From Candidatus Eremiobacterota bacterium (GTDB taxonomy: Bacteria; Vulcanimicrobiota; CADAWZ01; Ess09-12), in assembly GCA_031082125.1 (NCBI GenBank), contig JAVHLM010000040.1, positions 1-54,467 of the forward strand: a stretch of DNA of 54,467 nucleotides, written 5' to 3'. The notes below the pieces were generated by a model. That model had not been told where the DNA came from. It was given only the letters and a program-made list of their open reading frames with translations, and did not search any database. Below are positions 22,133 through 36,439 of the stretch, piece after piece. The position numbers and the translations under genes were made by a program. Within the stretch, counting starts at the first letter, position 1; the number at the start of each line of letters is the position of its first letter.

Positions 22133-22375
22133 AAAAGCCTCCCTGTGAAAAAACTGGGTAGCCTGAAGTACCATTCTCTGTTACCTGCTTTTTACCTCGG
22201 TAGGGCTGCTCCCTACATTGAATATTTCCAGGACTTGCCTCAATTTATACTTAAATGTGATAAAAGAGCCTTTCCATGAAAGGTGATGGGAATCGCCCAT
22301 AGAAATGTTATAGCAGATATATCCGCACAGCCTGTCAAGGCGGAAACATTTCATGGAAGTGAAGGAGGGGGAGTC

Positions 22376-23893
22376 ATGGTATCGACTAAAGTTCTGGATT
22401 ACAAGCTCTTTATAGGGGGAGAATGGGTTGCCTCAGGCTCCGGTGAGACCATGAAGGTCATTAACCCAGCAACCGGCGAGGAAATTGCCCGTGTCGCCTC
22501 TGCAACGGCTGAGGACGTGAACAAGGCCGTTGCGGCCGCGCGGGCAGCCTTTGAGGATGGCCGGTGGAGTGGCCTCTCTCCAGGGGAGCGCTCCATGCTG
22601 CTGTGGAAATTCGCCGCAGCCCTGGAAGAAAAAGCCATGGAGCTTGCGGACCTTGAGACGCTGCACTCGGGCAAGCCTGTGAAGCTCACCCGGAACAGCG
22701 ACATACCTTTCGCCATTGATAACCTGCGCTTTTTCGCGGGAGCCTGCCGCGCCCTTGAAGGGCGCTCCACTGCGGAATATGTGACTGGCTATACCAGCAT
22801 GATCCGCCGCGAGCCCCTTGGCGTCGTGGCGTCAATCGCGCCCTGGAACTATCCCTTCCTGATGGCCATCTGGAAAATAGGGCCGGCACTGGCAGCCGGG
22901 AATACCGTCGTGCTGAAGCCCGCTTCAATTACCCCCCTCACTTCCCTCGAGCTCGCAAAAATAGCCCACGAGGCAGGGATTCCCCCAGGCGTCCTGAACG
23001 TGATCACGGGCCGCGGGGAGATAGTGGGCTCCGCTCTTGCAGGCCATATGGATGTCGATATGGTTTCACTCACGGGCGACACCGCCACCGGCCGGCGCAT
23101 AATGACCGCAGCTTCCGGCTCATTGAAGCGCGTGCACCTGGAGCTGGGCGGCAAGGCTGCCCTTATCGTTTATGATGACGCCGATCTCGACGCCGCTGCC
23201 CGGGGAGCGGTTGTCGCAGGCTTTGTCAATACCGGCCAGGATTGCACTGCCGCCACCAGGATATATGCCCACGAGAGCGTTTTCCAGTCCGTGGTGGACC
23301 GCATGGTGGAGCTTACAAAGCAGGTCCGCCTAGGTGATCCCAAGGATGAGAAGACTGACATGGGGCCACTCTCGTCAGAGGGGCACCTCAAGAACGTGTC
23401 GTCCTTCGTGGAGCGGGCCCGGAAAGCCGGAGCTACCATCCTTGTGGGAGGCCAGCAGGCCCGGGGGGCCGGGCTTGATAAAGGATTTTACTATGAGCCC
23501 ACCCTTGTGACGGGCCTCCCCCAGGATGCAGAGCTGGTCCGGAACGAAGTCTTCGGTCCCGTCATGGTGCTTCTCCCTTTCAAGACCGAAGATGAGGTAA
23601 TCGCCAAGGCGAACGATGTAATCTTCGGACTCGCGAGCAGCGTCTGGACAAAGGACATCTATAAGGCCATGAATACGGCGCGGCGCCTTGACTTCGGCAC
23701 AGTCTGGATAAATGATCACCTGCCGCTTGCCTCGGAAATGCCCCATGGCGGTTTCAAGCAAAGCGGCTTCGGCAAGGATATGTCCATGTATTCCCTTGAT
23801 GAATACACGCGAATCAAGCATGTGATGGCCGACCTGGGCGGGCAGGTCCGCAAGGGCTGGCATTTCACCATCTTCGGCGACCAGGAGGCATAG
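22376..23893 (+). CDS. Aldehyde dehydrogenase, aminobutyraldehyde-type (PatD-like)
   Basis: A 505-residue NAD(P)-dependent aldehyde dehydrogenase. The catalytic cysteine is C290 in NTGQDCTAATRIYAH, and the general base is E256 in HLELGGK. APWNYPFLMA is the cofactor-binding motif. The QDCTA context is characteristic of gamma-aminobutyraldehyde/betaine-aldehyde-type enzymes such as PatD, which oxidise amino aldehydes from polyamine breakdown. ATG 22376 has GGAGGGGGAG just upstream. A strong terminator hairpin follows the stop codon. Its link to amine catabolism fits the aminotransferase and amine oxidase of the minus-strand cluster, though it is on the other strand. Confidence 0.88.
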   Translation: MVSTKVLDYKLFIGGEWVASGSGETMKVINPATGEEIARVASATAEDVNKAVAAARAAFEDGRWSGLSPGERSMLLWKFAAALEEKAMELADLETLHSGKPVKLTRNSDIPFAIDNLRFFAGACRALEGRSTAEYVTGYTSMIRREPLGVVASIAPWNYPFLMAIWKIGPALAAGNTVVLKPASITPLTSLELAKIAHEAGIPPGVLNVITGRGEIVGSALAGHMDVDMVSLTGDTATGRRIMTAASGSLKRVHLELGGKAALIVYDDADLDAAARGAVVAGFVNTGQDCTAATRIYAHESVFQSVVDRMVELTKQVRLGDPKDEKTDMGPLSSEGHLKNVSSFVERARKAGATILVGGQQARGAGLDKGFYYEPTLVTGLPQDAELVRNEVFGPVMVLLPFKTEDEVIAKANDVIFGLASSVWTKDIYKAMNTARRLDFGTVWINDHLPLASEMPHGGFKQSGFGKDMSMYSLDEYTRIKHVMADLGGQVRKGWHFTIFGDQEA

Positions 23894-23898
23894 GAGCC

Positions 23899-25266
23899 GT
23901 GAGGGAGCCTTCCCCGGCTGAAGGACATGAGAGCTCCGGCAGGAGCTCTTTTTTTCAGAGACTGTGGACCTCCGCCGGCTCGGCAAGGACTGCAGTTTTT
24001 CTTCTCTGCATTCTCGCTTTCCTCTCTGCCCTGGGCACCCTGATACCGCAGAATGAGAGCGGTGAATTCTATGCCGGGAAGTACGGCATGCTCCCGGGAA
24101 GGCTTATCATAGCTTCCTCCCTGGACACCATGTATTATGCATGGTGGTTTCTGCTGCTCCTTGTGCTTGTGGCCATAAACCTCGTCGTATCCAACATGAA
24201 GCGCCTTGAGACCCTGCGCGGGCTCTCAAAAAAAAAGGGCGCAGCCGCACCAGGCAGGGCTTACTTCCTTAACTCACCTCTGGCGGTCAGGTTCACCGCC
24301 AAAGATGATGATGAAAAAATCAGGGCAGACCTGGAGCAGGCGCTCCGCCGCCTGGGATACAGGCTGAAGAGAGAACCCCGGGGCGATGAGGTCTGTTACC
24401 TTGCTGAAAAAGGCGCCCTGCGGCGCTGGGGCTCCCTCGTGACCCACACAGGCATTCTCATCGTCTTTCTGGGAGTCATCTACGGACACTGGCCCGGCAA
24501 TGGATTTTCAGGAACAGCCCATATGACGCCTCATGGGGAGGACTCGCTCTTTGAACTCACGCAGGCCGGGTTTTCCCTGAAAATGCTCGACACAGGATCA
24601 AAGAGCGACGAGAAGGGAAGGCCTCTTGATTATTTCAGCATCGTAGAGGTGCAGAAAGAGGGGAAAAAGGTCCTGGGCCATACCATCAGGGTCAATGATC
24701 CCCTGGAGTTCGAGGGAGTGAAGTTCTACCAGTCTGACTTCGGGGTCCTGGGATTTTACCTCGATGTTGAGGGACCCGACGGGGTGGCCCAAAACGTCCC
24801 AGTGCACCTCACCATGGAGGGCGCTCCCGACATGGACCTGCCCATCGAGGTGCCCGGTACGGACCTCTCCCTGTTTCTCCACCGGTATATTCCCGACGGA
24901 CAAGGAGCCGAAGTCTTCCTTTATGAGCACTTCGTGATGGATTCCTATAATAAATGGGTGGCAAAAGGATGGGTAAGCAAGGGGACTCCTCTCAGCTACA
25001 AGGGCTACAGGATATCCATGGGGAATCAGGTCTGCTACTCAGGCCTCCAGTACCGCAAGGACCCGGGAGTTCCCCTCGTCTGGGCAGGGTTCTTCCTCAT
25101 GATCCTGGGGCTTGCACTCTCTTTTTATGTGACAGAAAAGACCATCCATATCCTTGTTCTTCCAGGGGAAGGTGAGCACAGCATTCTTGCCGTGACTCAT
25201 TCCCCTGCCGATGAAGACTTTGACGAAGAGCTTTCCGCGTTGCGGAAGTCCTGGAAGGAGCACTGA
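23899..25266 (+). CDS. resB: Cytochrome c biogenesis protein ResB
   Basis: A 455-residue ResB/Ccs1 protein, half of the system II machinery that delivers haem and joins it to apocytochromes outside the cytoplasmic membrane. Visible are RTAVFLLCILAFLSALGTLIPQ (the family's first membrane helix and GTLIPQ), further helices near 80-100 and 175-195, a large periplasmic domain (about 200-390) and a last helix near 395-415. The GTG start at 23899 is the only upstream start in frame, five bases after the aldehyde dehydrogenase stop and with AGGAG two nt upstream. A perfect terminator hairpin lies inside its first codons (23930-23955). Directly followed by ccsA, and adjacent to two multiheme cytochrome genes. 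Confidence 0.88.
   Translation: MREPSPAEGHESSGRSSFFQRLWTSAGSARTAVFLLCILAFLSALGTLIPQNESGEFYAGKYGMLPGRLIIASSLDTMYYAWWFLLLLVLVAINLVVSNMKRLETLRGLSKKKGAAAPGRAYFLNSPLAVRFTAKDDDEKIRADLEQALRRLGYRLKREPRGDEVCYLAEKGALRRWGSLVTHTGILIVFLGVIYGHWPGNGFSGTAHMTPHGEDSLFELTQAGFSLKMLDTGSKSDEKGRPLDYFSIVEVQKEGKKVLGHTIRVNDPLEFEGVKFYQSDFGVLGFYLDVEGPDGVAQNVPVHLTMEGAPDMDLPIEVPGTDLSLFLHRYIPDGQGAEVFLYEHFVMDSYNKWVAKGWVSKGTPLSYKGYRISMGNQVCYSGLQYRKDPGVPLVWAGFFLMILGLALSFYVTEKTIHILVLPGEGEHSILAVTHSPADEDFDEELSALRKSWKEH
23930..23955 (+). terminator. Intrinsic terminator-like hairpin between aldehyde dehydrogenase and resB
   Basis: An 8-bp perfect stem (23930-23937 with 23942-23949), a 4-nt GGCA loop and a run of seven T (23949-23955) form a textbook intrinsic terminator. 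It starts 37 nt after the aldehyde dehydrogenase stop but lies within resB codons 11-19. Confidence 0.75.
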
Positions 25267-25270
25267 GCCT

Positions 25271-26119
25271 ATGCCGCAGAGCATTAAAATGCATCCACTT
25301 GAGCCCCTTTCGTTCCAGGCTTTCTTCGGGCTCTATTTTCTGAGCCTCGTGGCGTATCTCTTTTATGCCTTTACGAAAAGGGAATCAGCGGGAAAGGCGG
25401 CAACGGCGCTCCTCGTTCTGGGGCTTCTCGCCAACACGGTAAACCTGGTCGCGCGGGGCATCGAGGCCGGCAGGGTCCCCTTCGCCAACCTTTATGAATC
25501 CCTTCTCATCTTTATCTGGGGCATAGCCCTCTGCCTGCTGTGGTGCACCCTGCGATGGAGGATCCACCTTGCAGGCGCCCTGGTGATGCCCCTCGTGTTT
25601 GCCATGGCATGCTTCGCCCTCACGGTGGACTCGGAGATAGAGCCCCTCATGCCAGCCCTTCGCAGCAACTGGATCACTTACCATGTCGCCACTGCAATAG
25701 TCGCTTACGGGGCTTTTGCATACTCTTTTGCACTGGCGGTCATTTACCTCATCAGGGAGCATATGGAGAAAGACGGCAGCAGCAGTCCGCTCCTGGAGAG
25801 GCTCCCCGGGCTGGAGAAGCTTGACAGGCTCATTTACAAGGTTATTGCCTTCGGCTTCCCCTTCCTTGTGCTCCTCATCATTACAGGGGCCATCTGGGCG
25901 GAAAGGGCCTGGGGGCGGTACTGGTCCTGGGATCCCAAGGAAACGTGGTCCCTCATCACCATGTTCATCTATGCCGGCTTTCTCCACGCGCGGTTTTTTC
26001 TGAAATGGCGCGGGAGAACCACGGCATTATTTGCAATAATCGGCTTCGCGAGCGTGGTGTTCTGCTACCTGGGCGTGAATCTTCTCCTTCCCGGCCTCCA
26101 CAGCTATGGAAGAAGGTAA
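25271..26119 (+). CDS. ccsA: Cytochrome c assembly protein CcsA/ResC
   Basis: A 282-residue polytopic protein of the CcsA/CcmC/ResC family, the haem-channel half of the system II cytochrome c synthase. The haem-handling WWD-type motif reads WGRYWSWDPKETWSL near residues 215-229. About eight helices are visible, as is the family's typical ending NLLLPGLHSYG. The ATG at 25271 lies 4 nt after the resB stop, so the pair is one operon. A longer in-frame start (25211) would overlap resB and has no support. The gene ends 12 nt from the three-heme cytochrome gene on the other strand. The presence of system II is consistent with the 33 haem-binding sites encoded next door. Confidence 0.92.
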   Translation: MPQSIKMHPLEPLSFQAFFGLYFLSLVAYLFYAFTKRESAGKAATALLVLGLLANTVNLVARGIEAGRVPFANLYESLLIFIWGIALCLLWCTLRWRIHLAGALVMPLVFAMACFALTVDSEIEPLMPALRSNWITYHVATAIVAYGAFAYSFALAVIYLIREHMEKDGSSSPLLERLPGLEKLDRLIYKVIAFGFPFLVLLIITGAIWAERAWGRYWSWDPKETWSLITMFIYAGFLHARFFLKWRGRTTALFAIIGFASVVFCYLGVNLLLPGLHSYGRR

Positions 26120-26131
26120 GATCGCAGAGGA

Positions 26132-26485
26132 TCAGGATTTGGGCTGATGGCACCTCTTGCAGTCAGCCTCAGCCTTTACTGAAAAGCATCTTTCGCCGTT
26201 ATGGCATTTCCCGCAGTGCTCGCCGGTGTTTATGGTGTCGTTGGTCATCCCCGAGGTGCCCTGCTTCATCTGGAAAATGCCGATGTGGCAGTCCTTGCAG
26301 AGCAGTCTCTGCTCCGTCGCGTGGGTTGAATGCCTGTATATCACATCGCCCGCCGTAGGGCATTTGTAGGTGAGATCGACAAGGCCGCTTGCATGTATCA
26401 TTGATATGAGGGCCAGTGCAGCGAGGCCCGTCATTGCCGCGACAAGAAAAACAGCCCGTAATTTCGCCTTTTCGCCCTTTTTCAT
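26132..26485 (-). CDS. Triheme c7-type cytochrome
   Basis: A 117-residue protein with an N-terminal signal or anchor (about 14-34) and three haem-binding CxxCH motifs (CKDCH, CGKCH, CKRCH). Single histidines before them are ready to act as distal ligands (YRHSTHATEQ). The short size and CHNGERCF spacing match c7-type triheme domains that are often found in cytochrome wires. It would sit in the periplasm, or be held to the membrane by an uncut signal. GAGGGGGCGG stands before the ATG. It is the last gene of the minus-strand run, 101 nt after the 30-heme cytochrome, and likely exchanges electrons with it. Confidence 0.88.
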   Translation of the reverse strand: MKKGEKAKLRAVFLVAAMTGLAALALISMIHASGLVDLTYKCPTAGDVIYRHSTHATEQRLLCKDCHIGIFQMKQGTSGMTNDTINTGEHCGKCHNGERCFSVKAEADCKRCHQPKS

Positions 26486-26586: not shown

Positions 26587-28656
26587 TCATTTAATTTTTG
26601 ATTTTTCCTCCGGATGGCACTTTCTGCATTCTCCGGCATCATGGCAGGCCTTGCACAGATCCTTCCTCTTGAGGGCGTCCTGCTTGTGAAGCCTTAATTT
26701 CCACTCCTCCTTGTGGTTGGAAGGCGGCATGGCCTGGTGGCATTTCAGGCATTCCTCCCGCGTGTGACACTTGATGCAGCTCGAAGACTTTTCCCTGGAT
26801 TCCTTCCCATGATCCATGCCGTAATTCTTCGCATGGGGCAGCTCAATGCCTCCGTGGCAAGTTTTACAGGCGCTCTGCCTCCCTGTCGCGGTATGGCACA
26901 GGGCGCACTGCGATTCCCTTCCCTTGGAGCTCTTATGCTCTTTCTTCCACATTTTGCCTTTATGGGACGGGGGGGTCACACTCCTGTGGCAGGCGACGCA
27001 TTCCTCCTTTTTGTGGCAGCGCAGGCACATGGTCTCCTTTTTCGTGTAGGCGGCCTTGTGATCAATGCCCCAGTTCCCTGGATGCGGCAGGGCAAGGCCA
27101 TGGCAGCGGTCGCAGGCTTCCCTGGCGTGGCATTTGAAGCAGTTCTCCTTTCCCGCCATTAACGCCGCCCCGTGGCTTTTCTCCCAGCTCCTTCCATGGG
27201 ATGAAGGCTTTTTGGACCTGTGGCACGACGCACATTCCTTTTCAGTGTGGCAGCGCAGGCAGAATCCCTCGCCGGTCCGTGAGCGGTGGGTGGCCATCCA
27301 CTGCCCGCTGTGCGGCATTGAGAGGGTATGACACTGGTCACAGGAGGAGTCACTGTCGTGGCAGAGCCTGCATGCTTTCCTGTCCTGTTGCGCTGCTCCA
27401 CCGTGCTTTTCAGTCCACGCATCATTGTGAGTTGATGGCCTGCTGGTCTTGTGGCATTTCACGCAGAAATCCTGCTTATGGCAGAGAGAGCACTGGGCGT
27501 TCTTCTTCGCCCCCTCTTTCTTATGCTTTCCCATCCACCCCTTTTCCCCATGGGAGACCGGAACTGAGTGCTCGTGGCATTTCACGCAGTAGCTCTCTTC
27601 ATGGCAGCTCTTGCACCGGCCCGGGTGCTGCCTGGCCTCGGCGGCGTGTTTTGCCTCATAGCCCGTCTGGTGCTGTGCAAGCTTTGTGTGGCAGTCGTCG
27701 CAGAAATCCTGCTTATGGCATTCATCGCACTTTTTCCTCTTCTTCTCGGCATCACTGACATGGGTTCTCATCCAGTCTATGGGGTGCTGCCACTTCATGT
27801 CGTGGCAGGCATCGCAGAACTGCTTGTCATGGCATCTTTTGCATCGGCTCTCGTCCTTTTTCGCGTCCGCTATGTGGGGAGAGCTCTCAAAATCCCTGGA
27901 ATGGGGGAATATGCTTTTATGGCAGTTCGTGCAGTAGTCCTTGTGATGGCATCGCTTGCACGATTCCTCGCCAGATTCCTTGATATTGCGCTTGTGGTTC
28001 GTGACCCATTTCTCCTGGTATCCCCTTCGATCCCGCTCGATTTCTCCCACATGACAGACGCTGCACTTGTTGGAGGTTTTCTTGCCGTCATGGCAGGTGA
28101 TGCACGTGGCCATCGTGGGATTGTGCAGGAAATCGGAACCGGCGCCGTGGACGACGTTCTTGTGGCAGAACACGCATTTGACGCCCAGGGTGAGATGCTT
28201 TTTATGGGTGATCTTGAGAGAATGGTACTCCACGAGCTCGGGAGATTCTTTATGGCACTGCGTGCAGTTGACGTCGGGAACATGTCCCTTGATGTCCCCC
28301 GGTTTCACGCCTTTGAAGTGGACATATACCTGCTTGAGGCTTTTGGTCTTGTGAACCACAAGGTTCTTCGTGCCCGGTGAGATATGGCACTGGACGCACT
28401 GGAGATCCTTATGGGGAGAGTTCTTCCATGATTCATAGTAGATGCCCATTTCATGGCAGCTGAAGCAGAAGGTGGGGCTGCTGGTCTGCCGGACCGCCAG
28501 CAGGAAGGAGAGAACACCTGCAAGAGCGCCGAAAAGGACCAGCAGGAGGAGGAGCCTGAGGCTCACTGTCTTCCTGATGAAAGGGAGGGTGATTCCCCGC
28601 TTCCAGAGGCTCTCGCCCGGACCCGGGAGGATTTTCTTGCCGTTATCCTTGTCCAT
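26587..28656 (-). CDS. Membrane-anchored 30-heme c-type cytochrome, NapC/NrfH-like head with tandem diheme repeats
   Basis: A 689-residue protein containing 30 CxxCH haem motifs by direct count. A short basic cytoplasmic head and one membrane helix (about 33-55) are followed by four haems (C64, C87, C131, C161) in a NapC/NirT/NrfH-like quinol-oxidising arrangement (CFSCHEMG). The other 26 fall in residues about 181-683, mostly in a repeating unit of roughly 40 residues: CxxCH, 4-8 residues, CxxCH, a histidine/proline stretch, Trp or aromatic, His. The inferred role is passing electrons from membrane quinol, or from soluble partners, along a periplasmic chain. AGGAAG lies 4 nt before the ATG. 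Encoded after the AOR and MoaD-like genes and before a triheme cytochrome, all on one strand. Confidence 0.93.
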   Translation of the reverse strand: MDKDNGKKILPGPGESLWKRGITLPFIRKTVSLRLLLLLVLFGALAGVLSFLLAVRQTSSPTFCFSCHEMGIYYESWKNSPHKDLQCVQCHISPGTKNLVVHKTKSLKQVYVHFKGVKPGDIKGHVPDVNCTQCHKESPELVEYHSLKITHKKHLTLGVKCVFCHKNVVHGAGSDFLHNPTMATCITCHDGKKTSNKCSVCHVGEIERDRRGYQEKWVTNHKRNIKESGEESCKRCHHKDYCTNCHKSIFPHSRDFESSPHIADAKKDESRCKRCHDKQFCDACHDMKWQHPIDWMRTHVSDAEKKRKKCDECHKQDFCDDCHTKLAQHQTGYEAKHAAEARQHPGRCKSCHEESYCVKCHEHSVPVSHGEKGWMGKHKKEGAKKNAQCSLCHKQDFCVKCHKTSRPSTHNDAWTEKHGGAAQQDRKACRLCHDSDSSCDQCHTLSMPHSGQWMATHRSRTGEGFCLRCHTEKECASCHRSKKPSSHGRSWEKSHGAALMAGKENCFKCHAREACDRCHGLALPHPGNWGIDHKAAYTKKETMCLRCHKKEECVACHRSVTPPSHKGKMWKKEHKSSKGRESQCALCHTATGRQSACKTCHGGIELPHAKNYGMDHGKESREKSSSCIKCHTREECLKCHQAMPPSNHKEEWKLRLHKQDALKRKDLCKACHDAGECRKCHPEEKSKIK

Positions 28657-28726: not shown

Positions 28727-28954
28727 CTATCCGCCGGAGATTGAAGGGATGACCTCCACCACGGAGCCTTCTTGTGGAACATGGGCGTAGTCAAATCTTT
28801 TCCCGTCAATCACCAGGGCCATTACATCGCCATGAGGAATGGCGAGCCTTTCCAGCACCTCTCCGAGAGACTCGCCGCCTGAAAGCTCCACCACCTCTTC
28901 CCTCTTTCCCCTGAAGTGCCTCAGATGTCCGTTAAGAATAAGGGTTATTTTCAT
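28727..28954 (-). CDS. MoaD/ThiS-family ubiquitin-like sulfur carrier
   Basis: A 75-residue beta-grasp protein that ends in GG, the thiocarboxylate-forming tail of MoaD and ThiS. MKITLILNGHLRHF and the VVEVIPSISGG ending fit the fold. MoaD supplies sulfur for the dithiolene of molybdopterin, which AOR needs as its tungsten ligand. The gene begins 9 nt after the AOR stop codon with AAGG upstream, so the two are almost certainly co-transcribed. Small MoaD-like genes often follow AOR genes, consistent with a dedicated pterin sulfur donor. Whether it serves tungstopterin specifically is inference. Confidence 0.85.
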   Translation of the reverse strand: MKITLILNGHLRHFRGKREEVVELSGGESLGEVLERLAIPHGDVMALVIDGKRFDYAHVPQEGSVVEVIPSISGG

Positions 28955-28963
28955 AGGTTACCT

Positions 28964-30850
28964 TCATGCCTTGCGGGTATGGCTTTCACACTGCTCCAGT
29001 CCCAGGTCCTTCAGGAGCTGCGGGGTGGGAATGCCGTCATCATCCCACCTCCTCAGGCGGTAATATTCCTCCAGGATGAGAGGCAGATCGGGGAGAACTC
29101 CGGCAGCCCGTCCCGACGGCCTGGGCTCTTTCTGAAGCCTCCGTGGGATGATATCGTCCTTTTTTGTGATTCCCAGCCTGTTGTTGAACAGTCTCTTGAG
29201 AGTGAAAATCCGCTCCCCGGTCTTCATCAGCTCGTCCTGCCCGACAGGCCATCCCGTCGAGAGGGAGAGCCACCGGGCAATCTGCGAGGGGCCCACCTGG
29301 GCCGTAAAAATAAACTTGCAGAGCCCCAGGGGGTTGAAGCAGGACATATAATTCTGCATCAGGTAGGCAACATGGCCCTTGCCTTCATTGATATGGGGAT
29401 CGGGCGGCGTGGCGAAGCCAAGATCGGGAAGGGGCACTCCTCTCCCGAGGAAGTAACTGAGCGCTTCCAGGTGACAGGCGCCGCGGTTCGCCGTGGCGTA
29501 ATTAGCAGCCATGCAGGTGAAGGCCCTGGGATCGTGGTAAGGGAATTCCTGTCCCTTGGTGTGAATGGCAAAATCCCCGGTGGCTCCCCCGAAATGGGCA
29601 GCGGCCTTCTTCACTCCCTCACCCAGCAGGCGGGCAAAAGCTCCTTCACGTAGCGCGATTCTGCGGGTAAGCTCCACAATGGCCTCTCCCCTCCCCCATT
29701 CCAGGGTAAGACCGTCGGCAGTGGTGCTGTTTATTATCCCTTTTTCATAAGCCTCCATGGCGAAGGCAATCATTGAGCTCGACGATATCGTATCCATACC
29801 GAGGCGGTTGCAGAGATCATTCGCAGCGATAATAACCTCGGGATTCTCATTCAACAGGTTTGATCCGAAGCCTGCAAGGGTCTCATACTCGGGCCCGTGG
29901 CCGTAAATTCCCTTGTAAGGCCCCTCCTTCACTTTCACAATCTTTGCGCACCTTATGGCGCATGAATAGCAGGTGGCGTGATGATCAAGAAGGGTTGGAA
30001 GATAAGCCTGCCCCGCGATTTTCTTTGCCCCTTCCACCCAGCTTCCAAGCTGCCAGTTCTTGATGGGAAGGTCTCCAAGGAACTCAATTGTCTCGACGCC
30101 GCCTGCGGTGCTCCAGTTGCGGAGTCCCTGGGCGTTCTTCACCATGAGGGGGACTTCAGCCTTGATAACCTTGAGCAGCTCTTCAGCATTCTCAGTCTCG
30201 ACAGGCTGCGAGCCCTTCAGCGCAATGGACTTGAGGTTCTTTGAGCCCATGACGGCTCCCATGCCGGAGCGCCCCATGGCTCTCGCGTGGATTCCGTCAA
30301 GCATTATGGAGGCAAAGGCCACACCGAGCTCCCCTGCCCTTCCTATGCTTGCGACTTTCGCATCACTCCGGGTTTCTTTTAAAATCTGGTCGGAGGCTTC
30401 AAAGGTGTCAAGTCCCCAGAGATGCTCCGCGCGGCGGATTTCAACGGCAGAATCGTTGATCCAGAGATAGACGGGGTGCGGCGCCTTACCCCTCACAAGG
30501 ATCCCGTCATACCCTGTAAAGGCAAGCTCTGCGCCCCATAGACCGCCGCTGCAGGACTCAGCCCAGATTCCCGTGAGGGGGGAGCGTGCACATGCGGTTA
30601 CGCGCGAAGAGGATGGGATCTTTGTACCGTTGAAGAGGCCTTTCATGAAGAGGAGCGGGCTTTCAGGCGCGAGGGGCTCAAGGGGCACCTTGTGCTCTTC
30701 AAAAAGGACTCTCACTCCCATGCCGCTTCCCGCCAGGAAGTCCCGGTACCACTGGAGGGGAATCTCAATCACCCTTGAAGTGAGAGAAGCAAGATTGACC
30801 TCCACGATCTTTCCATTGCAGAGAGAGCGTTTCCTGTTCACCTTGTCCAC
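28964..30850 (-). CDS. aor: Aldehyde:ferredoxin oxidoreductase (tungsten enzyme family)
   Basis: A 628-residue AOR-family protein, full length for the family. The 4Fe-4S cysteines are C294, C297 and C301 in CYSCAIRC plus C511 in NPLGLCKF, the classic AOR pattern. RSGMGAVMGSKNLKSIA and YGHGPEYETLAGFGSN are further family signatures, and the latter carries the EYET(L) residues near the pterin. AORs oxidise aldehydes to acids (or run in reverse) with ferredoxin as partner and use a tungsten bis-pterin site. It has a GTG start 25 nt after an aldehyde dehydrogenase gene. The nearby cytochrome genes suggest that electrons may go onward to haem proteins, which is unproved. No signal peptide, so it is probably cytoplasmic. 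Confidence 0.93.
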   Translation of the reverse strand: MDKVNRKRSLCNGKIVEVNLASLTSRVIEIPLQWYRDFLAGSGMGVRVLFEEHKVPLEPLAPESPLLFMKGLFNGTKIPSSSRVTACARSPLTGIWAESCSGGLWGAELAFTGYDGILVRGKAPHPVYLWINDSAVEIRRAEHLWGLDTFEASDQILKETRSDAKVASIGRAGELGVAFASIMLDGIHARAMGRSGMGAVMGSKNLKSIALKGSQPVETENAEELLKVIKAEVPLMVKNAQGLRNWSTAGGVETIEFLGDLPIKNWQLGSWVEGAKKIAGQAYLPTLLDHHATCYSCAIRCAKIVKVKEGPYKGIYGHGPEYETLAGFGSNLLNENPEVIIAANDLCNRLGMDTISSSSMIAFAMEAYEKGIINSTTADGLTLEWGRGEAIVELTRRIALREGAFARLLGEGVKKAAAHFGGATGDFAIHTKGQEFPYHDPRAFTCMAANYATANRGACHLEALSYFLGRGVPLPDLGFATPPDPHINEGKGHVAYLMQNYMSCFNPLGLCKFIFTAQVGPSQIARWLSLSTGWPVGQDELMKTGERIFTLKRLFNNRLGITKKDDIIPRRLQKEPRPSGRAAGVLPDLPLILEEYYRLRRWDDDGIPTPQLLKDLGLEQCESHTRKA

Positions 30851-30875: not shown

Positions 30876-32330
30876 TTAATAGGGGTACCACCACTCCTTT
30901 GCTCTCATTTCAAAGTCCCAGTGCACGTGCTTGGTCTCCCTGAACTCCTCAATCCCCTCTTCACCGAGCTCCCTGCCGCCGCCCGTGGACTTCATCCCGC
31001 CGAAAGGCCCGGCATCATTGTCGCTGAGGGGATCGTTTATCCATATGGTGCCTGCCTTGACCTCCTCGAAGAACCTTTTCACCTTCCTGGCGTCATTGGT
31101 GTAAAGGCAGGCACCCAGGCCGTAGTCGGAGTCATTGGCAAGCTCTATGGCCTCGTCGAAGGTCTTGAAGGTCATTATGGGAGCAACGGGGCCAAAGGTC
31201 TCCTCTTTGACGATTCTCATGGTATGGTCCACCCTGGTGAGGACCGTGGGCTCAAGGAAATAGCCTTTCCTGAATTTTTTCGGGCGCTTCCCGCCGTGGA
31301 GGAGTGCTGCTCCCTGTGAGACTGCCTCCTGGATCTGATCCTCCACTTTTTTCCTGTAGCTCTCGCCTGCCATAGGGCCGATGTCAGTGGTGGGCTCCAT
31401 TCCCGGGCCGAGCCTCAGGGTTTTCGTAAACTCCACGAAGCGCTCGGTGAACTCCCTGGCTATTGACTTGTGCACATAGATCCTTTCCGTGGAAGTGCAG
31501 ACCTGGCCCGCATTCAGAAAAGCCGCCCATGCCACGCCCTTCGTGGCGACGGCGAGATCCGCGTCCTCGCAGACCACAAAGGGATCTTTTCCTCCCAGCT
31601 CCAGGTGGACTTTCTTGAACTCTTCCGCGGCGGTCCTCGCAATCTTTCTCCCCGCCTCGACGCTCCCCGTGAAGGCAACCATCCTGATGTCCCTGTGCCT
31701 GATGAGAGCCATTCCGAGCTTCTCGCCGCTTCCGGTGATTATATTGACCACACCGGGAGGAAGCGCACCGAAGGCCTTATGGAGGGCTATGGTGGAGAGC
31801 GGGGTGACGCTTGAAGGCTTTATCACGACGGTATTTCCTGCTGCAAGCGCAGGTGCCACTTTCCACGACGTGAGAAGCAGGGGATAATTCCAGGGAGCGA
31901 TGCAGGCAACCACGCCGTAAGGCTCCTTGATGACCAGGGAGAGCTGGGAAGGCTCAACGGGCGCAATCACGCGCCCCATATAATTTCTCCCTAACTCCGC
32001 ATAATAGTCAAAGCATGCAGCCACCCATGTGACTTCATCGACGTTCTCCCTGAAAGGCTTTCCGCCCTCAAGAGTGAGGATCCTCGCAAGATCTTCCTTC
32101 TGTTCCCGGAGCTTTGCAGCAATTTCGTGGAGCAGCTCAGCCTTCTGGACACCCGGGACCTTCCTCCATTGAGGAAAAGCTTTCTTCGCCGATTGCACCG
32201 CCCTGTCAAGCTCTTCAAGAGTGCCTGAAGGGACTGTGTCAATCACTTCCTCCGTGGCGGGGTTTTTCACTTCTATCCTGTTCTGTGCGGATCCCTTGAC
32301 CATTTTTCCTTCGATCCAGTGACCGTACAT
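30876..32330 (-). CDS. NAD(P)-dependent aldehyde dehydrogenase
   Basis: A 484-residue aldehyde dehydrogenase. The nucleophile is C278 in NAGQVCTSTERIYVH and the general base is in HLELGGKDPFVV. The N-terminal MYGHWIEGKMVKG and cofactor motif APWNYPLLL are typical of the succinate-semialdehyde/aldehyde dehydrogenase superfamily. A substrate such as a semialdehyde from the upstream aminotransferase or amine oxidase is suggested by context, not by sequence. It lies 18 nt after the amine oxidase gene and 25 nt before AOR, so one transcript would carry both an NAD-linked and a ferredoxin-linked aldehyde oxidiser. Confidence 0.88.
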   Translation of the reverse strand: MYGHWIEGKMVKGSAQNRIEVKNPATEEVIDTVPSGTLEELDRAVQSAKKAFPQWRKVPGVQKAELLHEIAAKLREQKEDLARILTLEGGKPFRENVDEVTWVAACFDYYAELGRNYMGRVIAPVEPSQLSLVIKEPYGVVACIAPWNYPLLLTSWKVAPALAAGNTVVIKPSSVTPLSTIALHKAFGALPPGVVNIITGSGEKLGMALIRHRDIRMVAFTGSVEAGRKIARTAAEEFKKVHLELGGKDPFVVCEDADLAVATKGVAWAAFLNAGQVCTSTERIYVHKSIAREFTERFVEFTKTLRLGPGMEPTTDIGPMAGESYRKKVEDQIQEAVSQGAALLHGGKRPKKFRKGYFLEPTVLTRVDHTMRIVKEETFGPVAPIMTFKTFDEAIELANDSDYGLGACLYTNDARKVKRFFEEVKAGTIWINDPLSDNDAGPFGGMKSTGGGRELGEEGIEEFRETKHVHWDFEMRAKEWWYPY

Positions 32331-32348: not shown

Positions 32349-33821
32349 CTATTTTCCTTTCAAGGCTTTTGCAATTTCAGCGGCCACCTTCCTGCCGGCC
32401 ATCACGCTTCCTTCCACGTGGCTGCTGTAAAGGTAATCGCCGGCAAGATAGAGGCCAAGGGATGGGTCGTGAAGTGACTTTGTTCCGGCATCAATGGGTG
32501 ATCTCCCCACTGGCCACGCCGGTGTGGCGCCGGGATGGTACCCGTAAAAATACACGGCATTGACATATTTTGAGAAACCCGGCCATATCTTTTCAAGCTC
32601 GGCGAGGTACTCCTTTTTCATGGCGTCCAGGGGCTCGAGGTACGTTCTTGCATAGTCACCATGGATAAGAAGGGTGAACACCTCAAGCTTCTGGCCTGCC
32701 GGGGGCTCTTCCAGGACACCGTAGATGACCCCGAGTCGGCCCCGGGAGATGATGGGAAAAGGGAGCTTCCCGTCGTATTTTAAAAGGCTGTTGGCTTTCG
32801 TGTCAAGCAGGATGTGCACCACATAGTACTGCCCCGCCGTGAGGCTATAGACTGAATCCCATTGTTGCTTGCTGAGGGTGGGCTCCATCTGGATGGAGTG
32901 GAGGTGGTTCCACGAAACGGCCACTACCACGGCCTTTGAATTGATGCACTCCATCCTGTTGTTGAGAAGGTAATGGACCTTCACCTCCACAGTGTTGTCG
33001 GGCATCAAGGTGCGCACGATCCTGGTGACCCTCGCGTTGAGGATCTTGGGGCCTTTTATGGCCGCCGCGAAGGCGCTGGTAATCTTGCTGTTTCCACCCT
33101 TGATATGCCGGCACTTCTCTGTTTTGTGGAGAAACTGGCGAAGCTGCATGATGCCGTAAAGGGCGCTCACCTGCGACCAGTCCGTCGCTATCTCGCACTC
33201 TAGGGTAAGGCGCACAAACTCTGCCGTCTTCTTGGGAAGGTTCTGCCCCGCCACCCACTTGGCGAATGAGATCTTCTGGAGAGGCTCAAGGGCCGGAGTG
33301 AGCTTCTCTGCCACTGTCTCGTCATAGATTTTTTCCGTGGCGCTCCGCCAGTCGGAGAAGGCTTTTGCCTCCTCGGGATTCAGCACCGTTTTCAGGTACT
33401 CCTCAAAAGTGTCCTGGACATAGGGATAGACCTTCCCGTCAAGGATGCAGCTGGAATAGGGCTCCTCGGACTTGCTGTAGGGGAGATTGAACTTCTTGAC
33501 GTAATCGTTGAGAGGACAGGCTTCCCAGATTTCATGCATGCCGATTTCCGACAGGAGGCCGTCGCCGTAATCCACCGTGGCGACCCTGCCTCCCAGGCGA
33601 TCGTTCGCTTCAAGTATGACGCAGGAGATTCCTTTCTGCTCAAGCTCATAGGCAGCCACAAGCCCTGCCATGCCGCCGCCCACGATCACCACGTCCGTCT
33701 TTGACACCGCAGGCGATGCAAAAGATGGGCGGCAGGGAAAAAGCATAACGGCCAGGATGGCCGCGAAAACCAGGAAGGCAAGGCCCCCCCTCTGACAGCT
33801 CCCGGAACTGGCTCTTTTCAT
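32349..33821 (-). CDS. Secreted FAD-dependent amine oxidase
   Basis: A 490-residue flavin amine oxidase with an N-terminal signal (about 1-36; basic head, hydrophobic core, cut near SFA). The FAD-binding Rossmann motif is VVIVGGGMAGL (44-54) with ILEANDRLGGR just after, and the C-terminal family motif is YLAGDYLYSS. Members oxidise amines or related carbon-nitrogen bonds, giving aldehyde and ammonia. The start at 33821 is chosen because AAAGGAGG lies 7 nt before it. There is no twin-arginine motif, which is unusual for an exported flavoprotein. It sits in the middle of the amine/aldehyde gene run, 18 nt before an aldehyde dehydrogenase. Confidence 0.85.
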   Translation of the reverse strand: MKRASSGSCQRGGLAFLVFAAILAVMLFPCRPSFASPAVSKTDVVIVGGGMAGLVAAYELEQKGISCVILEANDRLGGRVATVDYGDGLLSEIGMHEIWEACPLNDYVKKFNLPYSKSEEPYSSCILDGKVYPYVQDTFEEYLKTVLNPEEAKAFSDWRSATEKIYDETVAEKLTPALEPLQKISFAKWVAGQNLPKKTAEFVRLTLECEIATDWSQVSALYGIMQLRQFLHKTEKCRHIKGGNSKITSAFAAAIKGPKILNARVTRIVRTLMPDNTVEVKVHYLLNNRMECINSKAVVVAVSWNHLHSIQMEPTLSKQQWDSVYSLTAGQYYVVHILLDTKANSLLKYDGKLPFPIISRGRLGVIYGVLEEPPAGQKLEVFTLLIHGDYARTYLEPLDAMKKEYLAELEKIWPGFSKYVNAVYFYGYHPGATPAWPVGRSPIDAGTKSLHDPSLGLYLAGDYLYSSHVEGSVMAGRKVAAEIAKALKGK

Positions 33822-33912
33822 TTTCATACCTCCTTTTATTAAAATCATCAGATACCATGGCAGTCAATGGCGATGTTCCAGGCAGAAAGAGGGCATCCCC
33901 CACCTCCCTGCG

Positions 33913-35082
33913 TTATGTAATCTCTTCTCTCGTCACCGAATACACTTTCATCTCTCTCAGGGCCAGTTCTTTGAAGTACTGCTCAGTATCAACGCACACT
34001 TCAGGCGGGAGGACCCCGCGTTTCCTGATCTGCCCGTCGGCAATCATCTGTGCTATGATGGAAGCCGGAACACCGGTGTCAAGGGCTCCTGCGCTCACTT
34101 TCCAGCGGCTGTGGGGCCTGACTATGCTCTCCATGCGGCATTCCACCTTCAGGCCGTTCTTTTTTCCATGGACTTCCACCCTGATGACATCGCAGTCATC
34201 GGCGTCGCCTTCCGGCGAGGGAAGCTCGCTGATAAGGGACAGCAGGAATTTCCGCGGAGACACCTCCACTCCATGAATGGTCCTGCGGGTGTCGCTCGCG
34301 AATCCCAGCTCGGCGAGAAACTTTATCTTGTTATAAAACTCCACGGGGAAAGCGATCCTGAAGCTGGCCCTCTTGATGCCTTTCTCTTTAAAGGAGAGAG
34401 GGAAGGTGGCCACTTCAGAGTGGATGGTATAACAGGCTGTCTGTATCCCCACAGGCGAGGGGAATATCACTTCCTCCTCACCGGAGAGCGGCGGTACCTC
34501 GCGGAACTTCCCCCCCTCAAAGATGACAGGGTTCAGGGAAAACTCATCCAGTATGGTATCCATGGTATAAGGCGGCGTGAGGGGCGATTCACTCCTCGAG
34601 AAATCGGCGCACCCTATTTTTACCTCTGCGGATACCACTTCGTCAAGCCTGCCCGCGGCGTAACCTGCCATGATATTTGTGGTGCCCGGAGTGCTCCCGC
34701 ATCCCAGCACGGCAATAAGGCCCGCCTTCTTGAATTCGGCAGAAAGCTCCAGCTGGCGCTGCGTCATTTTGAAGAGCCCGCCAAGATCAAGGTAGTGGAC
34801 GCGGGCCTCGAGGCAGGCTTTCATCACCTCGAGATTCAGCAGGTAGGGCGTGGAGTTGATTACCACCTCGTGGCCTTTTATGAGGGCGACGAGCTTATCG
34901 TGCTGCTTTATGTCGATGCTCTCCACTTTCAGTCTTTTGTCCTTGAGGTTTCCCAGGATGGCAAGGGCCGACTTGCGGTGCAGCTCTCCCACGGTGACAT
35001 GCTCAATGTCGGGATTTTCCAGCAGATCCTGCACGGTAATGCGTCCCATCAATCCTGCTCCGCCCAGCACTGCAATTTTCAT
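33913..35082 (-). CDS. Saccharopine dehydrogenase-family protein, lysine 6-dehydrogenase-like
   Basis: A 389-residue protein with the NAD(P)-binding head of the saccharopine dehydrogenase family (KIAVLGGAGLMGR near residues 2-14) and the C-terminal half of lysine 6-dehydrogenases (GLxVECRMES, ending in KRGVLPPE). Its length matches L-lysine 6-dehydrogenase (about 385). That enzyme deaminates lysine to allysine/piperideine carboxylate. Related enzymes make or split carboxynorspermidine-like compounds, so the exact amine is uncertain. GAGAGGAG stands upstream of the ATG at 35082. It lies 28 nt after the aminotransferase gene. Confidence 0.83.
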   Translation of the reverse strand: MKIAVLGGAGLMGRITVQDLLENPDIEHVTVGELHRKSALAILGNLKDKRLKVESIDIKQHDKLVALIKGHEVVINSTPYLLNLEVMKACLEARVHYLDLGGLFKMTQRQLELSAEFKKAGLIAVLGCGSTPGTTNIMAGYAAGRLDEVVSAEVKIGCADFSRSESPLTPPYTMDTILDEFSLNPVIFEGGKFREVPPLSGEEEVIFPSPVGIQTACYTIHSEVATFPLSFKEKGIKRASFRIAFPVEFYNKIKFLAELGFASDTRRTIHGVEVSPRKFLLSLISELPSPEGDADDCDVIRVEVHGKKNGLKVECRMESIVRPHSRWKVSAGALDTGVPASIIAQMIADGQIRKRGVLPPEVCVDTEQYFKELALREMKVYSVTREEIT

Positions 35083-35110
35083 ATGGTTGCTCCTCTCTTC
35101 AGAATTTCGT

Positions 35111-36439
35111 CTAGTGAGTGACTTTCGCTGCCGCCATCGATTCTTCAAGGATGTCAAGGCCTTTCACGAGAAGGTCTTTCTCTGTTACCAGGGGCGCCAG
35201 GATTCTTATGACATTGTCATAGATGCCTGCCTTGAGGATGACAAGCCCTCTCTGGTGGCACTCTTTTACTATCGAGGCCGTCTCTGTGCTGGCAGGAGTC
35301 TTCTTTTTCCTGTCTTTCACCAGCTCTATTGCCATCATGGGGCCCATTCCCCTCACGTCGCCGATGAGGGGATATTTCCTCTCCATCTGAACCAGGCGGT
35401 CCCTGATGAGCTTGCCCTGGTCCCGGGCCTTCTTCATGAAGCCTTTCCTCTGCATTACCTCAATGACTTTGAGGGCAGCCGCGCATGAAAGGGGGTTTCC
35501 GCCGAATGTTCCGCCCAGCCCCCCCACCATGGGAGCGTCCATCAGCTCTGCTTTTCCCGTGACAGCTCCGAGAGGAAGTCCCCCTGCCAGCGATTTTGCC
35601 GAAATGATAATATCAGGAGAGATTCCGGAGTGCTCGGAGGCGAAGAAAGCGCCTGTCCGGCCGAAGCCTGTCTGCACCTCGTCAGCGACGAAGAGAATGC
35701 CGTGCTCCCTGCAGATCTTCTGAAGGCCCTCCATATATTCCGGCGGGGCAGGGATAAAGCCGCCCTCGCCGGTGACAGGCTCAATTATCACGGCGGCGAT
35801 CTCTTTGGGGTCCGCGTGTGCGGCGAAGAACTTCGTGAAGAACTCAAGGCATTCCATGGAACAGCCTGCCCGCTCCCTTCCCACAGGGCACCTGTAGCAG
35901 TAAGGATAAGGTATCCTGTATACCTCCGGCGCAAGTGCGCCGAAGCCGAATTTATAGGGCCTCACCTTGCTCGTCATGGTCATGGTGAGATAGGTTCTCC
36001 CGTGGAAGCCCGCCTCAAATACGATGATCCCTTTTCTTCCCGTGGCGCTGCGGGCCACCTTGACGGCGTTTTCAACGGCCTCGGCGCCGCTGTTCACGAA
36101 CATGGACTTTTTGTGAAATTCTCCCGGCGCTATCTCCGCGAGTTTCTCGGCAAGCCTCACATAAGATTCATACATGGTCACGTGAAAGCATCCATGGAGG
36201 AACCTGTCTGCCTGTTCCTTCACGGCCTGGACCACTTCCTCATGGCAGTGGCCTATGTTGAGCACCCCGAGCCCCCCTGCAAAGTCTATGAGGACGGTGC
36301 CGTCCACGTCGGTTATCGCGGCGCCTTTCGCCTCTTTCATGAAGACCGGCACTATATTGAAGACGCCTCTCGGCACATACTGCTCTTTTACCTTGATGAG
36401 CTCAAAAGATCTTTTCCCGGGGATACCTTTGCTTTTCAT
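35111..36439 (-). CDS. Class III PLP aminotransferase, 4-aminobutyrate-type
   Basis: A 442-residue class III aminotransferase of the GABA/ornithine/lysine group. The PLP lysine is K282 in IISAKSLAGGLPLGA; FVADEVQTGFGRTG supplies the cofactor aspartate, and NSGAEAVENAVK is the phosphate-binding motif. The match to GABA aminotransferases is strong, but beta-alanine, putrescine or lysine epsilon-amino substrates cannot be excluded. GGAG is 6 nt before the ATG. It is the first gene of the run that continues with lysine 6-dehydrogenase-like protein, amine oxidase, aldehyde dehydrogenase and AOR. Products of these enzymes would be semialdehydes. Confidence 0.9.
   Translation of the reverse strand: MKSKGIPGKRSFELIKVKEQYVPRGVFNIVPVFMKEAKGAAITDVDGTVLIDFAGGLGVLNIGHCHEEVVQAVKEQADRFLHGCFHVTMYESYVRLAEKLAEIAPGEFHKKSMFVNSGAEAVENAVKVARSATGRKGIIVFEAGFHGRTYLTMTMTSKVRPYKFGFGALAPEVYRIPYPYCYRCPVGRERAGCSMECLEFFTKFFAAHADPKEIAAVIIEPVTGEGGFIPAPPEYMEGLQKICREHGILFVADEVQTGFGRTGAFFASEHSGISPDIIISAKSLAGGLPLGAVTGKAELMDAPMVGGLGGTFGGNPLSCAAALKVIEVMQRKGFMKKARDQGKLIRDRLVQMERKYPLIGDVRGMGPMMAIELVKDRKKKTPASTETASIVKECHQRGLVILKAGIYDNVIRILAPLVTEKDLLVKGLDILEESMAAAKVTH

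Follow-up and report, generated by a model that had tools for sequence, protein, structure and literature searches.

A 30-haem c-type cytochrome with a NapC/NrfH-like head and a tail of diheme modules in a Candidatus Eremiobacterota bacterium

The window analyzed here, a stretch of 54,467 nucleotides from a Candidatus Eremiobacterota bacterium, encodes a c-type cytochrome with 30 haem-binding motifs in a single chain of 689 residues: a membrane-anchored, NrfH-like head of six putative haems followed by a tail of 12 diheme modules. The protein is tentatively explained (probability of about 0.45) as a NapC/NrfH-type quinol dehydrogenase, extended by a c7-like triheme and 12 bis-His modules, which would deliver the electrons of amine and aldehyde oxidation, by way of quinol, to a triheme c7 encoded next door. 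From the sequence and its genomic surroundings we infer quinol oxidation, the direction of flow, the partnership with the c7, an extended shape and co-transcription with the neighboring genes.

Head and tail of the 30-haem protein

The gene and the parts of its product are located as follows.

26587..28656, minus strand: gene of the 30-haem c-type cytochrome (689 aa; the span includes the stop codon)
28492..28566, minus strand: single N-terminal membrane anchor, residues ~31-55 (read from the sequence; basic residues ahead of the anchor; N-in, C-out)
28147..28503, minus strand: NrfH-like head, residues 52-170, haems 1-4 (TIGR03153, E 1.1e-12; PDB 2j7a NrfH, E 1.8e-5)
28051..28212, minus strand: c7-like triheme, residues 149-202, haems 4-6 (Pfam Cytochrome_C7)
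26605..27960, minus strand: tail, residues 233-684, 12 diheme modules with 24 haems (module spacing and alignment)
26779..26907, minus strand: module 584-626, absent from a 28-haem relative (comparison with the protein of genome G005)

The open reading frame proposed by an earlier reading of the bare sequence (the sequence-only reading) is a real gene of 689 codons' worth of protein, with one correction: it is encoded on the minus strand. An ORF check found no open frame on the plus strand of 26587-28656. Its ATG is preceded by a Shine-Dalgarno-like AAGGAAG. Recounting gave the same 30 CxxCH motifs as that reading. All 60 cysteines of the protein lie within them, with no orphan CxxC, and 2000 shuffles of the same composition contained on average 0.5 motifs and never more than 4. 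Haem is presumably attached at all 30 motifs, which would add ~18.5 kDa to the calculated apo mass of 78.4 kDa (pI 9.1). The genome is a 69-contig assembly of 7.43 Mb; assembly contamination is an unlikely origin of the contig, whose GC and tetranucleotide profile agree with two other contigs of the same genome.

The anchored NapC/NrfH-like head, claimed before any profile search, is borne out. Pfam Cytochrom_NNT, the NapC/NirT N-terminal domain with its anchor, matches residues 31-116 with 47.6 bits (cut-off 24.1). This match begins together with the anchor, which is also the best-supported part of the full-length AlphaFold model (pLDDT 74-79). The NrfH profile TIGR03153 covers residues 52-170, and NrfH (2j7a) is the sole PDB sequence match of the whole protein. 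As an equivalog, however, TIGR03153 scores 48.2 bits, far under its cut-off of 134.2, which argues against NrfH proper. Haem 1 has a CxxCHxM motif, which we take to be an NrfH feature: it reads CFSCHEM at residue 64 and CNRCHEM in the G005 relative, so that CxxCHEM is conserved. The c7-like triheme overlaps the NrfH-type part at haem 4, and the C185/C198 pair belongs to this triheme; the head therefore consists of six haems, all irregularly spaced. A b561 domain was not found in the protein, which has only one hydrophobic stretch and hence lacks the six-helix di-haem b part of CbcL/MtrH/MtoC.

Behind the head, the spacing becomes regular. CxxCH pairs, 9-13 residues apart, recur each 37-43 residues with the consensus CxxCHx4CxxCHx4PxxHxxxWxxxH. 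The repeats had been described with this spacing and put at about 13; there are 12, the C185/C198 pair being part of the c7-like triheme of the head. Modules two apart score higher than neighbors (mean of 88 vs. 66), so that the PH and PxSH types partly alternate. Identity outside Cys and His among the modules within the array is low (mean of only 19%), and 9 of the 11 counterpart modules in the G005 relative find their best match in their positional partner; a recent repeat expansion was rejected on these two grounds.

Ten non-overlapping, in-register four-module blocks, taken from six proteins of three genomes, were aligned. Every CxxCH is invariant, and two further His columns are present per module (seven of the eight invariant, the eighth at at least 90%). 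Trp occurs often, and at two of the four positions it is conserved, so the conserved His and Trp positions noticed earlier extend to the relatives. In all 10 full modules that the window's protein shares with its G005 counterpart, the two extra His are aligned and identical. Thus, besides its CxxCH, each tail haem has one distal His available, as in bis-His multihaem cytochromes. Two conserved distal His per two haems is what bis-His ligation needs, and from this conservation such ligation is the natural reading of the tail.

Structure prediction was less informative. The full-length AlphaFold model (six-sequence alignment, no haems) reached a pLDDT of 41 and a pTM of 0.20, and the model of a four-module tail, based on the ten in-register blocks, a pLDDT of 55. 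Foldseek searches of the PDB with these low-confidence models found no match for the whole protein or for the four modules, and the tail alone has no PDB sequence match. In GSU1996 of Geobacter, 12 haems span 12 nm (PMC10138318). At that extension, the 24 tail haems would measure ~24 nm, a figure of arithmetic and not of structure.

Relatives and comparison with known systems

Tandem CX2CHX4CX2CH arrays were searched for in 149 genomes of the window's own phylum and were encountered in three of them; the remaining pattern matches are single or of low complexity. In the window's genome, all ten DNA matches to the pattern fall inside the 30-haem gene. The protein thus belongs to a real, rare family. 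Homologues do differ in repeat number, with 28, 22, 22, 24 and 29 haems. The 28-haem protein (G005:C56, from another family of the phylum) shows 42-43% identity (43% over residues 17-567), the same head and position-matched modules, one module fewer, and its gene lies next to cytochrome b561 and other multihaem genes. The same tail module also forms the end of a 24-haem protein (G005) and of a 29-haem protein (G006), whose heads are longer and different. In two 22-haem proteins of G006, only a membrane helix precedes the tail, and NrfD or molybdopterin subunits are encoded nearby. The same tail on different heads, beside quinone-active subunits, argues that it is a portable part, joined to quinone-linked inner-membrane systems.

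Some further features of these loci were observed. The 24-haem (L023:7937-10123, minus strand) and 29-haem (L026:10975-13533, plus strand) proteins combine a head of 14-15 haems with the diheme tail; 8-9-haem genes and a split cytochrome b/PetD lie next to theirs, and together these apparently encode bc-type complexes with giant cytochromes. The 22-haem proteins (L024:2840-4465 and L025:10889-12625) have proline-rich C-terminal ends. A contig-edge fragment in G028, from another family of the phylum (L010:1303-2022, minus strand), encodes seven haems with two tail-like diheme modules and may represent a shorter version of this module. A single weak Bacteroidales locus from a scan of named genomes was taken as generic (23% identity, different motif spacing), a plasmid search for relatives returned a NapC protein only, and five weak matches (L006, L008, L011-L013) were judged to be another kind of protein, 5-haem proteins which we take to be ActA-like.

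The protein shares with NrfH, NapC, CymA and TorC its single N-terminal anchor, the CxxCHxM at haem 1 and, in residues 52-170, the four-haem arrangement of NrfH. Members of the NapC/NrfH family, on the contrary, usually carry 4-5 haems (PMC12285233), against the 30 motifs counted here, and NrfA has no match in the whole genome. CbcL/MtrH/MtoC homologues (3-23 haem motifs) and ImcH (6-10) likewise carry many c-haems on the same chain as a quinone-active membrane part (PMC6295460). However, the b-type domain of CbcL comprises six helices, and ImcH has three, whereas here one helix is followed by an NrfH-like head and a regular diheme tail. The fusion of a quinol head with a multihaem chain, held to be unusual by the sequence-only reading, is therefore already known; such a length behind a NapC/NrfH head is what remains unusual.

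Many haems per chain are also found in the periplasmic Geobacter proteins GSU1996, with 12 haems in tandem domains, and GSU2210, with 27 (PMC10138318), and cytochromes of ANME archaea reach up to 86 haems (PMC9012536). GSU1996 repeats a triheme c7 domain in which one haem is of the His-Met type, whereas the unit repeated here is a diheme module that has two extra His and follows a membrane quinol head. Moreover, TIGR04257, the profile of tandem c7 trihemes, matches the neighboring c7 gene and not the 30-haem protein. By the tests made, the protein is neither NrfH nor CbcL nor of the GSU1996 type, and belongs to the broad class of multihaem cytochromes. Among the open-access full texts searched, none was found to describe tandem diheme modules behind a NapC/NrfH head.

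Gene neighborhood and candidate partners

The 30-haem gene lies near the end of a co-directional run on the minus strand, and a pair of cytochrome c maturation genes converges on the run.

35111..36439, minus strand: class III aminotransferase of the GABA transaminase type (TIGR00700, 548 bits vs. a cut-off of 506.65)
33913..35157, minus strand: saccharopine dehydrogenase/carboxynorspermidine synthase-like protein
32349..33848, minus strand: flavin (FAD) amine oxidase family protein (PF01593, E 5e-37) with a probable Sec signal peptide read from the sequence
30876..32330, minus strand: aldehyde dehydrogenase, nearest to aminobutyraldehyde dehydrogenase (profile match)
28964..30850, minus strand: aldehyde ferredoxin oxidoreductase (AOR) family enzyme (AFOR_N, AFOR_C)
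28727..28954, minus strand: ThiS/MoaD-like sulfur carrier, 75 aa, ending in GG (PF02597, E 4.7e-10)
26132..26485, minus strand: triheme c7, 117 aa, with an N-terminal signal (TIGR04257, E 1.8e-18; 3ov0, E 2.7e-37)
23899..25266, plus strand: ResB, cytochrome c maturation System II (PF05140)
25211..26119, plus strand: CcsB, cytochrome c maturation System II (TIGR03144, over cut-off)

In the order of the run (aminotransferase, saccharopine dehydrogenase-like, amine oxidase, aldehyde dehydrogenase, AOR, ThiS/MoaD-like, 30-haem, c7), the gaps are -47, 64, 18, 25, 9, 70 and 101 bp. The ThiS/MoaD-like gene, too short for the first list of open reading frames, fills most of what had been taken for a gap of ~308 bp upstream of the 30-haem gene; the real distance is 70 bp. 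Judging from spacing and strand, the genes of the run appear to form a single transcription unit that serves the oxidation of amines and aldehydes and has an electron outlet at its end. No promoter-like site was found in the stretch scanned. In other bacteria, the tungsten oxidoreductase family includes membrane-bound enzymes of respiratory appearance that have cytochrome-containing subunits (PMC13328260), so a link between an AOR and a cytochrome has a precedent in kind. Beside the relatives of the 30-haem gene, the amine/aldehyde neighbors are not conserved. Another aldehyde dehydrogenase gene (22283-23893, plus strand) precedes the ResB/CcsB pair by 5 bp and converges on the run.

The triheme c7, encoded on the same strand immediately downstream, is closely related to the repeats of GSU1996 (structure 3ov0) and is a probable periplasmic redox partner of the 30-haem protein; only 12 bp separate its stop codon from that of the convergent CcsB gene. 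A census by profile searches, which used few families, is not exhaustive and covers only part of the porin-cytochrome families, met only three further multihaem c-type genes in the genome: this c7, another c7 (at C19) and a tetrahaem NapC (at C8). No outer-membrane porin lies near the gene, as the sequence-only reading had pointed out, and the MtrB/PioB profile PF11854 has no match in the whole genome, which speaks against an MtrCAB-type porin complex.

Two loci elsewhere in the genome were recorded as well. A second triheme c7 gene (L059:9586-10002, plus strand), with a Cys-rich C-terminus, lies away from other multihaem cytochromes and overlaps the beginning of another gene, whose 400-aa product contains a CxxxCP motif. 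At C8:2963-5313, a gene of the flavin amine oxidase family with a Tat-like signal overlaps the tetrahaem NapC-type gene; this unusual pairing suggests that a periplasmic flavoenzyme exchanges electrons directly with the quinone pool. The genome contains 17 PF01593 matches, and the flavoproteins of C8 and of the run are alike only around the FAD motif; the pairing of NapC and flavin amine oxidase may therefore be due to chance.

Proposed function and alternatives

As a quinol dehydrogenase, the protein would work as follows. Amine and aldehyde oxidation by the enzymes of the run would feed electrons to the quinol pool, from which they would enter at the NrfH-like head and pass from haem to haem along a tail of low-spin haems. 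The tail would hand them to the triheme c7, or to another periplasmic partner, and the c7 would carry them to a periplasmic acceptor. The length of the chain may let it extend into the periplasm and hold up to 30 electrons. This is supported by the homology of the head, by the modules with their conserved His, by the relatives, whose neighbors (cytochrome b561, cytochrome b/PetD, NrfD, molybdopterin subunits) are parts of membrane quinone-active complexes, and by the adjacent System II genes and the tight co-directional run. For the c7 as a partner, a precedent exists in Geobacter, where the quinol-side cytochrome CbcL hands electrons to the triheme PpcA (PMC9129911); the kinship of the neighboring c7 with GSU1996 points the same way. 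The low confidence of the models, the absence of NrfA, a terminal acceptor that was not found, the lack of a promoter-like site in the stretch scanned and the neighbors that are not conserved count against it. NapC-type proteins can also run towards quinone, which weighs against the quinol-oxidizing direction.

A doubtful but serious alternative is an electron capacitor, compact or lying along the membrane, that would store quinol electrons until an acceptor becomes available and bridge no distance. The periplasmic Geobacter proteins GSU1996, GSU0592 and GSU2210 are thought to be electron stores (PMC10138318), and the few multihaem cytochromes met in this genome, with no MtrB/PioB found, would suit such a role. 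However, a linear array accounts better than a compact globule for the regular one-dimensional modules, their A/B alternation and their orthology by position, and GSU1996, though called a store, is itself extended (PMC10138318).

Electron intake is improbable. In that case, electrons from the exported flavin amine oxidase would enter the tail or the c7 and pass through the NrfH-like head to the quinone pool. The signal peptide on the amine oxidase family protein of the run and the Tat-type exported member overlapping the NapC gene at C8 fit this, but the possible chance nature of that pairing, given above, reduces their weight, and no amine oxidase gene lies beside the relatives of the 30-haem gene. 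Least probable is a conduit for extracellular electron transfer, in which the tail reaches an unrecognized outer-membrane partner: its length of ~24 nm, if as extended as GSU1996 (PMC10138318), is close to the 23.5 nm of the Shewanella periplasm (PMC5971433), but, among the porin-cytochrome families searched, MtrB/PioB has no match, and none of the four multihaem cytochrome genes met by profiles is obviously of the outer membrane.

For the preferred quinol dehydrogenase, the same length allows a bolder and rather unlikely idea. In Shewanella, with a periplasm of 23.5 +/- 3.7 nm, the inner-membrane quinol dehydrogenase CymA reaches only ~5 nm, too short for the outer-membrane complex, so that shuttles are needed and electrons were concluded to cross on mobile cytochromes (PMC5971433). 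Here, one polypeptide might conduct electrons from the quinol pool over the greater part, or even the whole, of the periplasm along a 24-haem rod, replacing shuttles of the Shewanella type, with a module that evolution has attached to different quinone-linked heads. With a NapC/NrfH head and 24 extra haems on one chain, a fixed wire becomes testable, and the diheme module is a natural variable-copy building block for studying how haem chains lengthen. For the organism, the position of the gene at the end of an amine/aldehyde oxidation run suggests an electron outlet dedicated to that chemistry.
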